Source: Pseudanabaena sp. FACHB-1998 (lineage in GTDB: Bacteria; Cyanobacteriota; Cyanobacteriia; Pseudanabaenales; Pseudanabaenaceae). From it: DNA of 64,000 nt. The notes under the pieces are model-generated. The model made no database searches. It was not told where the DNA came from and was given only the letters and a program-made list of their open reading frames with translations. The stretch lies in the NCBI RefSeq assembly GCF_014696355.1, contig NZ_JACJQA010000009.1:1-64000 (forward strand), in the 5' to 3' direction. The position numbers and the translations under genes were made by a program. Below, piece by piece: positions 4,432 through 41,524 of this stretch (position 1 is the first letter of the stretch; each line of letters begins with the position of its first letter).

Positions 4432-4661
4432 ATACCAAATGAAGAAATGGCTACGCCATTTCTTCATTTGAAAAACCTTACTGGGTTTGGTTTTTATATC
4501 ACAAAAGTGTTGGCACACTTTCGTGATATAAAAACCAAAAAGCGAGTTGCGGCGCTTCGCGCCGCAACTCGCTTTTTGGGTTTTATGTCCTAAGCAAACC
4601 TTACATTGCTATAGAATGGTCTCCCCCCCAATGACTTTGCCATTTGGGGGTTTGGTATAAG
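4432..4661. repeat. Composite of dispersed palindromic repeats upstream of ftsH
   Basis: This 230-bp stretch contains three stacked hairpins and no gene. It starts with ATACCAA and a palindrome (about 4437-4470), then the spacer AAAAACCTTACTGGGTTTG, then a hairpin with the arm TTTTTATATCACAAAAGTG (about 4489-4536), then a 21-bp-arm hairpin (4535-4579). It ends with TAAGCAAACCTTACATTGCTATA, the end sequence of the MITE family, and a last GGTAT at about 4656-4660. The same units recur at 15.7, 22.3 and 37.8 kb. It is best read as nested or adjacent miniature elements. Confidence 0.75.
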
Positions 4662-6776: not shown

Positions 6777-6871
6777 CTACCATTCTTGTTAGTGAACAAC
6801 CCAAGAAACGAGTTGCGGTGCGAAGCGCCGCAACTCGTTTCTTGGGTTTAATGCAAGTGAACACAGCTATA
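6775..6871. mobile_element. MITE-like element
   Basis: The left end reads GGCTACCATTCTTGTTAG and the right end ATGCAAGTGAACACAGCTATA. Their inverted comparison matches the family ends TATAGCTGTTGCCATTCTTGTTAG. Between them is a long palindrome with the core AGTTGCGGTGCGAAGCGCCGCAACT. There is no coding capacity. It lies between ftsH and tRNA-Pro. Confidence 0.6.
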
Positions 6872-15627: not shown

Positions 15628-15743
15628 TATAGCAAAGCAAGAGTTAGCCAGTACAAACCAAAACCCAAAAAGCGAGTTGCGGCGCTTCGCGCCGCAACTC
15701 GCTTTTTGGGTTTTATGTCCTAAGCAAAACTTACATTGCTATA
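15628..15743. mobile_element. MITE-like element with TATAGCAA ends
   Basis: The left end TATAGCAAAGCAAGAG and the right end, inverted, TATAGCAATGTAAG match. Both arms then lead into a palindrome with core AGTTGCGGCGCTTCGCGCC. About 80 bases of the right half are nearly identical to the element at 4535-4616. TA lies at both borders. No gene inside. Confidence 0.65.
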
Positions 15744-22293: not shown

Positions 22294-22398
22294 TGTTTTT
22301 CAAAACTAAGAATGGCACAGCAATTTTTAGTTTTGAAAAACATTGTTGAGTTTGTTTTTTAATTCACAAAAACGTTGTCCCACTTTCGTAAATTGGTA
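22292..22398. repeat. Palindromic repeat between the two M16 genes
   Basis: The hairpin AATGTTTTTCAAAACT ... AGTTTTGAAAAACATT begins in the stop codon. It is followed by TTGAGTTTGTTTTTTAATTCACAAAAA and ends in AATTGGTAT. This is an uninterrupted relative of the element that is split by a MITE at 37.8 kb. Confidence 0.6.
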
Positions 22399-26601: not shown

Positions 26602-26713
26602 TTTAGCGGTTGGCATTCTTGTGAGGAGATAAAACCAGAATCGAGTTGCGGCGCTTCGCGCCGCAACTCGATTCTGGTTTTGATTTGTCCTAATGCAGGT
26701 GACTTTAGCTATA
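26602..26713. mobile_element. MITE-like element
   Basis: The left end is TTTAGCGGTTGGCATTCTTG; the right end is TGCAGGTGACTTTAGCTATA. A perfect palindrome (26631-26681, loop TTC, core AGTTGCGGCGC) fills the middle. A further partial end, TATAGCGATCTCTAAGTGGATTAG, begins at 26710, so two elements may abut. Confidence 0.6.
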
Positions 26714-31639: not shown

Positions 31640-31727
31640 AGAGAAACCAAAAGCCCAGAAGCGAATTGCGGCGCGAAGCGCCGCAATTCGCTTCTGGTTT
31701 GGTGTGCTAACAAGAATGGCAACAGCA
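31640..31727. mobile_element. MITE-like element
   Basis: The right end, inverted, is ATGCTGTTGCCATTCTTGTTAG, matching the family end. The central palindrome has core AATTGCGGCGCGAAGCGCC. The left end is degenerate (TTTTTTAGGAGAGAAACC). The rest of 31422-31876 holds no gene. Confidence 0.55.
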
Positions 31728-36604: not shown

Positions 36605-37786
36605 ATGCGTTCAAGGCAACATCCCTTTCAAGCCTCAACATCAGTGATTAAGGCGATCGCTAGTCTATTTAAAAACCTCGCTAGCCACAAACTAGCCCGT
36701 AAGTTTATATCTTTTTTCTTGGCTGGAGCATTGATTACGGTCACGATGGCAGCTTGCACGGCTAGCAATGAGACACCCACTGCTCAAACAGGTAATTCTA
36801 CAGCCCAACAAAAATCTGGCGACCCACAGAAAGATGGTGCGCCTAAAAAAGAAGTTGAATTAACCCTCGTGTCCTTTGCCGTTACCAAACAAGCTCACGA
36901 AGCAATTATTCCTAAATTTGTAGAGAAGTGGCAAAAGGAACAAAATCAAAAAGTTACCTTTAAGCAAAGCTATGGTGGATCTGGTTCTCAAACCCGTGCA
37001 GTTATTGACGGTCTCGAAGCTGATATTGTCCACCTTGCGCTTGCGGCGGATACTAGCAAAATTGAAAAGGCTGGGCTGATTAATAAAGGCTGGGAGCAAG
37101 AATACCCTAATGAAGGAATTGTTTCTAAGTCGATACCAGTCCTTGTGACCCGTGATGGAAATCCTAAAAATATCAAGGACTGGTCAGATTTAGAGAAAAG
37201 TGGCATTAGCTTAATCACTGCCGACCCCAAAACTTCAGGAGTGGCGCGTTGGAACTTCCTTGCTCTTTGGAATGCAGCAGTAAAGAAAGGTGGCAGCGAT
37301 GACAAAGCCTTAGAAGCTCTCACGAAAGTGTATACTAACGTGCCAATCTTAACAAAAGACGCTAGAGAAGCTACTGACGCATTCTTTAAGCAAGGTCAAG
37401 GCGATGCATTGATTAACTATGAAAACGAGATCGTCCTTGCATCTCAAAAGGGACAGAAAGTTAATTACGTCATTCCTGATGTTAATTTTTCCATCGATAA
37501 TCCGATCGCAGTCGTTGACAAGAATGTAGAAAAACACGGCACAAAGGAAGTTGCGGAAGCATTTGTAAAGTTCCTTTATTCTCCTGAAGCCCAAACTGAA
37601 TTTGCTAAGGTCGGTTTCCGTCCAGTAGATGAAACTGTAGCCAAAGAAAAGCAATTTATAGATCTTTATCCGAAGGTCAAAGAACTCTCGACTGTAAAAG
37701 ATTTGGGAGGTTGGGATGCGATTAATAAGAAATTCTTTGCTGATGGTGCAATCTTTGACCAAATTCAAGGAAAAATCAAGCGTTAA
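36605..37786 (+). CDS. sbpA: Sulfate ABC transporter substrate-binding protein
   Basis: 393 residues. After a long N-terminal head comes a hydrophobic helix ending LITVTMAACTASNE, a likely lipobox with Cys near residue 57, then a low-complexity linker and the periplasmic binding domain. Family blocks: SYGGSGSQTRAVIDGLEADIV, LVTRDGNPKNIKDWSDL, DPKTSGVARWNFLALWN, and GQGDALINYENE. It captures sulfate or thiosulfate and delivers it to CysT/CysW. A 296-base spacer with nested repeats separates it from cysT. Confidence 0.94.
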   Translation: MRSRQHPFQASTSVIKAIASLFKNLASHKLARKFISFFLAGALITVTMAACTASNETPTAQTGNSTAQQKSGDPQKDGAPKKEVELTLVSFAVTKQAHEAIIPKFVEKWQKEQNQKVTFKQSYGGSGSQTRAVIDGLEADIVHLALAADTSKIEKAGLINKGWEQEYPNEGIVSKSIPVLVTRDGNPKNIKDWSDLEKSGISLITADPKTSGVARWNFLALWNAAVKKGGSDDKALEALTKVYTNVPILTKDAREATDAFFKQGQGDALINYENEIVLASQKGQKVNYVIPDVNFSIDNPIAVVDKNVEKHGTKEVAEAFVKFLYSPEAQTEFAKVGFRPVDETVAKEKQFIDLYPKVKELSTVKDLGGWDAINKKFFADGAIFDQIQGKIKR

Positions 37787-37823
37787 TAGATTAAATTGAC
37801 TTCTCCTAAAAAGAAGGAGCGTC

Positions 37824-38039
37824 ATACCAAAATTAAAAATAGCTGCGCCATTTTTAGTTTTAAAAAACCTTACTGGGTTTGATTTTTATAGCTGTTGCCA
37901 TTCTTGTTAGGACACAAAACCAGAAGACGAGTTGCGGCGCGAAGCGCCGCAACTCGCTTCTTGAGTTTTGATTTGTTCTAATGCAAGTGACCACAGATAT
38001 AATTCACAAAAGTGTGATCACACTTTTGTGAATTGGTAT
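37824..38039. repeat. ATACCAA-family palindromic element interrupted by a MITE
   Basis: The outer element starts ATACCAA, has a TAAAAATaGCtgcGCCATTTTTA hairpin, then AAAACCTTACTGGGTTTG. It continues after the insert as AATTCACAAAAGTGTGATCA... and closes with TTGGTAT. Copies at 4.4 and 22.3 kb have the two halves joined, so the middle here was split later. Confidence 0.75.
37887..38001. mobile_element. MITE-like element nested in another repeat
   Basis: About 115 bp from TATAGCTGTTGCCATTCTTG to GTGACCACAGATATA. Ends are imperfect inverted repeats of about 25 bp, the interior palindrome has core AGTTGCGGCGCGAAGCGCC, and TATA stands at both borders. It sits between TTTTTATA and ATTCACAAAAG of the outer repeat. 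Confidence 0.75.
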
Positions 38040-38082
38040 AAATCCCTTGTTTGATATAAGATTTTTGAAAATTAAAGACAAC

Positions 38083-38976
38083 ATGGTAACGACGACACCT
38101 TCTTCTCCGCCTGACCAAAAGCAAAAATCTAATCCCTTGCTGAAATTCCTTGGCAAAATTCCTTGGACATGGGTAATTACCTTTACTTATCTAGCTTTTC
38201 TCTTGATTTTGCCGATCATTGCCCTGATCGTTAAATCAGTGAGTGAGCCTTTTGAAAGCTTTTGGAAAACAGCTACCAGTCCCCTTGCCTTATCCAGTTA
38301 CGAAGTAACCTTTGTGACTGCCTTTGCGGCAGCGGCAATCAATGGGGTATTTGGCACATTAATTGCTTGGGTCATCGTTCGCTACGATTTCTTTGGCAAG
38401 CGCTTTCTCGAAGCTGTTGTGGACTTGCCCTTTGCTTTGCCGACTGCGGTGGCAGGGCTTACCCTCGCCACGGTTTATAGCGAAAAGGGTTGGCTTGGCT
38501 CCTTGTTTGCGGCTAACGGCGTAATTGGAGCATTGTTTCCCCCTACTGGTATCAAAATGGCTTTTAGCCGTATTGGGGTTTGGCTAGCTATGATGTTTAT
38601 CTCTTTACCCTTTATTGTGAGGACAGTCCAGCCAGTCCTTACAGAGTTAGAAAAAGAAATTGAAGAGGCCGCTTGGTCACTCGGCGCATCAAAATTTCAA
38701 ACCTTTATGCAGGTGATTTTACCTCCCCTTACCCCTGCTATTTTGACAGGCGTAGCACTTGGCTTTTCTCGGGCTGTTGGGGAGTATGGCTCCACCGTAA
38801 TCATTGCTTCTAACACTCCTTTTAAGGATCTAATTACTCCAGTTTTAATCTTCCAACGCTTAGAACAGTATGACTATGTGGGGGCAACAGTGATTGGATT
38901 TGTGATGTTACTCATCTCCTTTGTCAGCCTCCTTGCCATTAATCTATTGCAAGCATGGAGTAAGCGCTATGGCTAA
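38083..38976 (+). CDS. cysT: Sulfate ABC transporter permease CysT
   Basis: 297 residues from ATG 38083; the upstream TTG lies next to the repeat and is rejected. Six membrane helices and the inner-membrane permease motif EEAAWSLGASKFQTFMQVILPPLTPAILTG (EAA loop) for coupling to the ATPase. AVGEYGSTVIIASNTP is the sulfate permease signature. Its last 8 bases overlap the start of cysW, so translation is coupled. Confidence 0.94.
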   Translation: MVTTTPSSPPDQKQKSNPLLKFLGKIPWTWVITFTYLAFLLILPIIALIVKSVSEPFESFWKTATSPLALSSYEVTFVTAFAAAAINGVFGTLIAWVIVRYDFFGKRFLEAVVDLPFALPTAVAGLTLATVYSEKGWLGSLFAANGVIGALFPPTGIKMAFSRIGVWLAMMFISLPFIVRTVQPVLTELEKEIEEAAWSLGASKFQTFMQVILPPLTPAILTGVALGFSRAVGEYGSTVIIASNTPFKDLITPVLIFQRLEQYDYVGATVIGFVMLLISFVSLLAINLLQAWSKRYG

Positions 38977-41439: not shown

Positions 41440-41524
41440 AATTGCAGGAGTACAAATCCAAGAAGCGAATTGCGGCAATTCGCTTCTTGGATTTGTGTCC
41501 TGATAAGAATGGCAACAGCATATA
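41440..41524. mobile_element. MITE-like element
   Basis: Right end, inverted, TATATGCTGTTGCCATTCTT; interior palindrome CAAATCCAAGAAGCGAATTGC / GCAATTCGCTTCTTGGATTTG with almost no loop. Left end degenerate (ACCAATTGCAGGAGTA). The rest of the spacer is AT-rich. Confidence 0.55.

Follow-up and report, generated by a model that had tools for sequence, protein, structure and literature searches.

Reciprocally nested miniature elements of two families in Pseudanabaena, probably mobilised by IS630-family transposases with unlike target duplications

The spacer between two neighbouring sulfate-transport genes of Pseudanabaena holds one short repeat within another, which raises the question of whether the landing of one mobile element in a second one is recorded here and, if so, which transposases could have moved the two. 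The source genome comprises 4.78 Mb in 64 contigs; the window, i.e. the whole stretch of DNA analysed, is 64,000 nucleotides long. The gene of the sulfate-binding protein (36605-37786) and cysT (ATG at 38083), both named from a reading of their translations, run in the same direction, and the spacer between them is occupied by TACCAAAA...TTTTTA, then 111 bp, then TA-ATTCACAAAAG...TTGGTA. Both repeats are present in all 23 Pseudanabaena genomes searched, and neither was found in any of the 15 genomes searched from other families. A transposase fragment resident in the genome has a counterpart in Pseudanabaena sp. M53BS1SP1A06MG, with 96% identity over 110 residues.

The outer repeat is 101 bp long (TACCAA...TTGGTA), extends over positions 37825-38038 and is split by an element of 111 bp (37889-37999, forward strand). 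Its left part (37825-37888, forward strand) begins with TACCAAAA, continues with the hairpin AATTAAAAATAGC-TGC-GCCATTTTTAGTTTT and with CCTTACTGGGTTTG, and ends in the TA target of the inner element. The right part (38000-38038, forward strand) is formed by the hairpin AATTCACAAAAGTG-TGAT-CACACTTTTGTGAATT and the terminal TTGGTA. The insert is flanked by TA on either side (37887-37888 and 38000-38001) and measures 115 bp with both of them (37887-38001), which bears out the TA-bounded MITE of about 115 bp described in the earlier note. Its first bases are TAGCTGTTGCCATTCTTGTTAGGACA, of which a related inverted copy forms the other end; the terminal repeats of this IS630/Tc1-mariner-type MITE are imperfect (TATAGCTGTTGCCATTCTTGTTAGGACA and TATATCTGTGGTCACTTGCATTAGAACA), with a central GCGGCGC hairpin between them. 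The outer repeat has TCA on its left (37822-37824) and TAA on its right (38039-38041), both of the TNA type, and the inequality of these flanks means that the duplication has decayed or that the flanks were rearranged. The outer consensus is restored without a gap once the insert and one TA are removed. The structure in the window is confirmed to be an inner MITE inserted into an unrelated outer MITE. Short hairpins with a core like GCGGCGC-(GAA/TTT)-GCGCCGC are very numerous across the window (for example at 1708, 9028, 15942, 33137, 36411, 42342 and 55493), and only some of them lie within the MITEs described here.

At six loci (the window copy L001, L002, L003, L004, L010 and L012) the sequences on both sides of the insert were rejoined through one TA, and the product was aligned to the outer consensus. 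The junction is continuous in all six and needs exactly one TA in each, so the TA proposed earlier as the target duplication of the inner element is indeed its duplicated target. The rejoined L001, L002 and L012 align with no gap, L004 has one 1-bp insertion away from the junction, and L003 and L010 have small indels, likewise away from it. It might be supposed that the arrangement was built by independent insertions side by side or by recombination between repeats, as short repeats and hairpins crowd the genome and truncated or abutting copies do exist (near 4432, L023, L163 and C34). This explanation is extremely improbable, since at six loci the two outer halves complete each other to a single consensus and are separated by the insert and exactly one extra TA, and a TA duplication at different positions is not expected from recombination.

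The state before the insertion of the inner MITE had been read in the earlier note from contiguous outer halves at 4491 and 22355. The sequence at these places is as stated there, and both copies are themselves damaged: the one at 4433-4527 (forward strand), uninterrupted at the equivalent site, has lost its right end beside a third MITE family (4530-4613), and the one at 22301-22398 (forward strand, right flank TTA) has lost its left terminus. Because of this damage the copies near 4432 and 22297 are weaker witnesses than the approximately 30 or more near-full outer copies without insert in the genome. The third MITE family (TATAGCAAAGCAAGAGTTAGCC...TGTCCTAAGCAAAACTTACATTGCTATA) is represented in the window by a complete copy at 15628-15743 besides the partial one at 4530-4613, and it occurs in L046 near 270-390; its likely source is a group of elements on C8, C15, C40 and C4 with ends TATAGCAAAGAAAGGGATAGTTAGGACA beside a DDE_3 transposase.

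Besides the window copy, six outer copies hold the inner element, whose site and orientation vary among them. The insertion site TTTT-TA-A was used four times, once in the opposite orientation (L012), and the other sites are ATTCA-TA-AAAGTG (L004), CCTTAG-TA-G (L010) and TTTTG-TA-AAT (L022). In L001, L002 and L003 the inner element has the same position and orientation, and the inner elements of L002 and L003 have no closer relative than each other (97.4%), which could suggest that outer arms and inner core are one composite repeat spreading as a unit; for this last pair alone such spread is possible. As an account of the whole family it is very improbable and largely refuted. The earlier note had pointed out that all outer copies should then contain the inner sequence, whereas most outer copies and most inner copies are solitary and the nested ones differ in site and orientation. 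Moreover, L001 and L002 have outer elements of different subfamilies (82.5% mutual identity), each nearer to empty copies (90-97%), that of L002 being 97% identical to the empty L164. The window event is independent and not a copy of another composite, since its outer element is closest to the empty L189 (90.1%) and L190 (88.1%), with 85% identity at most to the nested outer elements, and its inner element has its nearest relative in the solitary L005 (96.5%).

Insertion in the opposite direction is found as well. In L176 an outer element lies inside an old copy of the inner family, and its removal together with one TGA gives an inner alignment that is continuous across the junction. L165 (TCA/TCA) and L187 (TAA/TAA) resemble this arrangement, but were not counted because of the weak alignment of their hosts. 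A nest of three elements is present on contig C7 (~85880-86210; L022 and L168), where one outer element holds both the inner one and a second outer one (L168), the latter landed in CC-TTA-CTAGG with a TTA duplication. Nesting between the two MITE families is recurrent and reciprocal; the insertion that the earlier note called a recorded transposition is real, but it is not a single event.

The inner family is not a product of chance, as at least 64 of its left ends are found in the genome (30-mer, up to 3 mismatches) versus 0 for a reversed control pattern and the window copy, over 115 bp, has 97% identity with the family consensus. The genome stretches retrieved contain at least 57 distinct oriented copies, at least 40 of them 114-116 bp long; the copy counts of both families are lower bounds because only the best-scoring candidates were taken in. 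The element carries no transposase gene and many copies are near one length. Diverged, older copies of the family (~75-86% identity) are seen in the window at 6780-6871, 26604-26713, 31641-31726 and 41454-41524.

An IS630/mariner-like transposase acting in trans had been suspected, and IS630 elements with similar ends do reside in the same genome. One on C47 is ~950 bp long, has two reading frames, ends in TATAGCTAACACCAAGTGTATTAGGACG and TATAGCTAGCACCAAGCGTATTAGGACG and is bordered by TA on both sides. Its sister element is represented by seven identical ends (0 mismatches), of which the inspected ones differ in their flanks and in most cases run into a contig end; this is the pattern that recent copying of near-identical elements should leave. 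Ends of the form TATAGCYRTNGCCA-N6-TTAGGACR are shared by full-length relatives from Nostoc, Cylindrospermum, Dolichospermum and others, and the inner MITE has a left end that conforms to this consensus. The family-consensus ends of the inner MITE agree with the resident IS630 end at 21/28 and 22/28 bases, which was counted against the assignment of the source. The transposases of this TA type have HTH_Tnp_IS630 and DDE_3 domains. Together these data support the inner element being a TA-duplicating MITE of the IS630 type, and the likeness of the ends suggests a TA-specific IS630 element as its probable mobiliser in trans.

The outer element had been described as an ATACCAA-family repeat. The repeat is real; its true ends are TACC...GGTA, and the flanking A/T lie outside the element in its 3-bp flanks. 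What the earlier note missed is that the outer repeat is also a MITE, probably with a source of its own in a different, TNA-duplicating clade of the IS630 family. Identical 3-bp flanks are found in 28 of the 49 outer copies with both ends (14 TTA, 12 TAA, 1 TCA, 1 TGA), and a flank match of 4 bp or more in none of the 49. Thus the outer type does not follow the family's usual 2-bp TA duplication and has a 3-bp TNA duplication, both in the MITE and in the similar-ended IS (identical 3-bp flanks in 15/18 copies). A TA duplication with shifted ends was considered for the outer MITE and rejected, since neither the copies flanked by TCA/TCA, TGA/TGA or TAA/TAA nor the rejoined L176 site can be accounted for with fewer than 3 bp.

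The candidate source of the outer MITE was found in this genome as a broken copy only, a transposase remnant on C50 that ends in TTTTGTGATTTGGTA. Longer relatives end alike: L222 starts with TACCAAAACAC and has TTA on both sides, and plasmid elements of P. galeata (L304) and of Pseudanabaena sp. ABRG5-3 (L307) are both flanked by TAA/TAA. Among more distant relatives a 3-bp duplication accompanies 8/9 copies in one genome (TAA, TTA, TTC) and 3/3 copies in a second one (TCA, TTA); L240 has TAA/TAA, and L244 and L248 have TAA/TTA. The IS630-family elements of ~1.14 kb with ends of the TACCAAA/TATGAAAT type and TNA (or TTC) duplications are L246, L251, L254, L255-L263, L222, L240, L304 and L307, and the likely mobiliser would be ~1143 bp long. 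The right end of the outer MITE agrees with the end of this second IS630-family element at 22/27 bases, and its left end has little in common with the proposed IS beyond TACCAAA.

Duplications of 3 bp at TNA are made by the IS1031 subgroup of the IS5 family, which resembles the outer element in target and duplication length. An IS5/IS1031 source was rejected, as the element with matching ends encodes a transposase of the IS630 family and not of IS5; this transposase has no match to an IS5 model in NCBIfam or Pfam. The outer-type transposases match the DDE_3 (Pfam) and IS630 (NCBIfam) models, their NF033545 scores (191.8 and 131.3 bits, cut-off 100) place them in the IS630 family, and they are annotated so in plasmid records. 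Their HTH domains are HTH_23/29/32 instead of HTH_Tnp_IS630, and they resemble the TA type only locally. The outer MITE was probably mobilised by an IS630-family element different from that of the inner one. Transposases of the IS630 family in two adjacent reading frames, with otherwise good ends, were also noted (L092 1400-2277, L049 1087-1956, L304 511-1583), as expected of programmed frameshifting.

ISY100 (ISTcSa) of Synechocystis PCC 6803, a member of the IS630/Tc1/mariner family, inserts at TA and duplicates it, and the same is stated there for the IS630 family as a whole (PMC2170065), so the clade with outer-type ends departs from the family rule. ISY100 is like the inner family in being cyanobacterial and in duplicating its TA target; it differs from the gene-less inner MITE in having 24-bp ends and a transposase gene, and from the outer one, which duplicates 3 bp. 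What is unusual in the present results is that a clade of the IS630 family duplicates three bases, TNA. A report of IS630 elements with TNA duplication was not found in the open-access literature searched, which is not proof of absence. It is likely that a cyanobacterial IS630 clade that inserts at TNA and duplicates 3 bp spawned the abundant TACCAAA MITE of Pseudanabaena, and that two IS630-family systems of one genus, unlike in their cut spacing, repeatedly inserted their MITEs into each other.

At the sulfate locus, the orthologous spacers of 14 Pseudanabaena relatives contain neither element, and the neighbouring coding end is 74-84% identical (L202, whose contig gave no spacer, was left out of the comparison). 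Both insertions therefore most likely took place in this lineage. One relative's spacer has a short hairpin resembling the left arm of the outer element. An outer element without the inner one was not found at this locus among the 14 relatives, and the state before insertion was therefore read from paralogous copies. The outer element is more diverged than the inner one, which fits the order outer first, inner second, and the structure itself also requires this order. From these comparisons and from the likeness of the ends we infer the date of the events at the locus and the assignment of transposases to MITEs. The older outer MITE (101 bp, TACCAAA...TTTGGTA) would have landed between cysT and the gene of the sulfate-binding protein, and its transposase was probably one of the IS630-family clade with TNA cutting and 3-bp duplication. 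The TA in TTTTTAATTCAC of this outer copy would later have become the target of the inner MITE (111 bp) and been duplicated, with an IS630 element specific for TA, and with ends of the TATAGCYRTNGCCA-N6-TTAGGACR type, probably acting in trans. Such nesting of two MITE families with different ends, the outer placed first through the TNA clade and the inner later through a TA-specific IS630 element, is very likely.

An AAGGGGC...GCCCCTT hairpin precedes cysT in the spacers of relatives (L194, L195, L197, L198), and the window has at 38039-38060, beside the outer MITE, seemingly only the right half of it (CCCTTGTTTGATAT). The presence of a GGGGC...GCCCC hairpin here in several relatives, together with the folding of the spacer, which is much better than that of shuffled sequences (z = -9.75), could mean that selection maintains the hairpins as a terminator, attenuator or RNA-stability element of the sulfate-transport operon, so that the nested state would be selected and more than a relic of transposition. 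This is unlikely: the hairpins travel with the repeats wherever these occur, relatives do not conserve them at the locus, and the repeat region has no match to an Rfam family. Such a function does not compete with an origin by transposition, and an effect of the repeat region on cysT expression is possible, judging from its position and folding.

The insertion of one MITE into the other is clear but ordinary in kind, as IS630-type MITEs and nested short repeats are already known. RUP of Streptococcus pneumoniae is a gene-less repeat of 107 bp with ends like those of the resident IS630-Spn1 and a proposed mobilisation in trans, similar in these respects to the MITEs described here, and insertion of repeats into each other is likewise on record for pneumococcus (PMC3049150). 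RUP differs in its host, and reciprocal nesting with two IS630 sources of unlike duplication length is not described in the available part of that study. In Anabaena sp. 90 many short, mostly intergenic MITEs with inverted repeats were reported (PMC3542288). These have no evident IS with matching ends (type II), in contrast to the similar IS ends found here. A paper on Pseudanabaena MITEs was not found in the open-access literature. New here are the two Pseudanabaena MITE families, their reciprocal nesting and the IS630-family clade with 3-bp TNA duplications.

Nested copies serve as pairs of sites before and after insertion, which fix element ends and duplication lengths without experiment and also give relative ages. 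They demonstrate that two MITE families of Pseudanabaena moved repeatedly, also into each other, and the IS630-family clade with a 3-bp duplication is a testable exception to the TA rule of its family.
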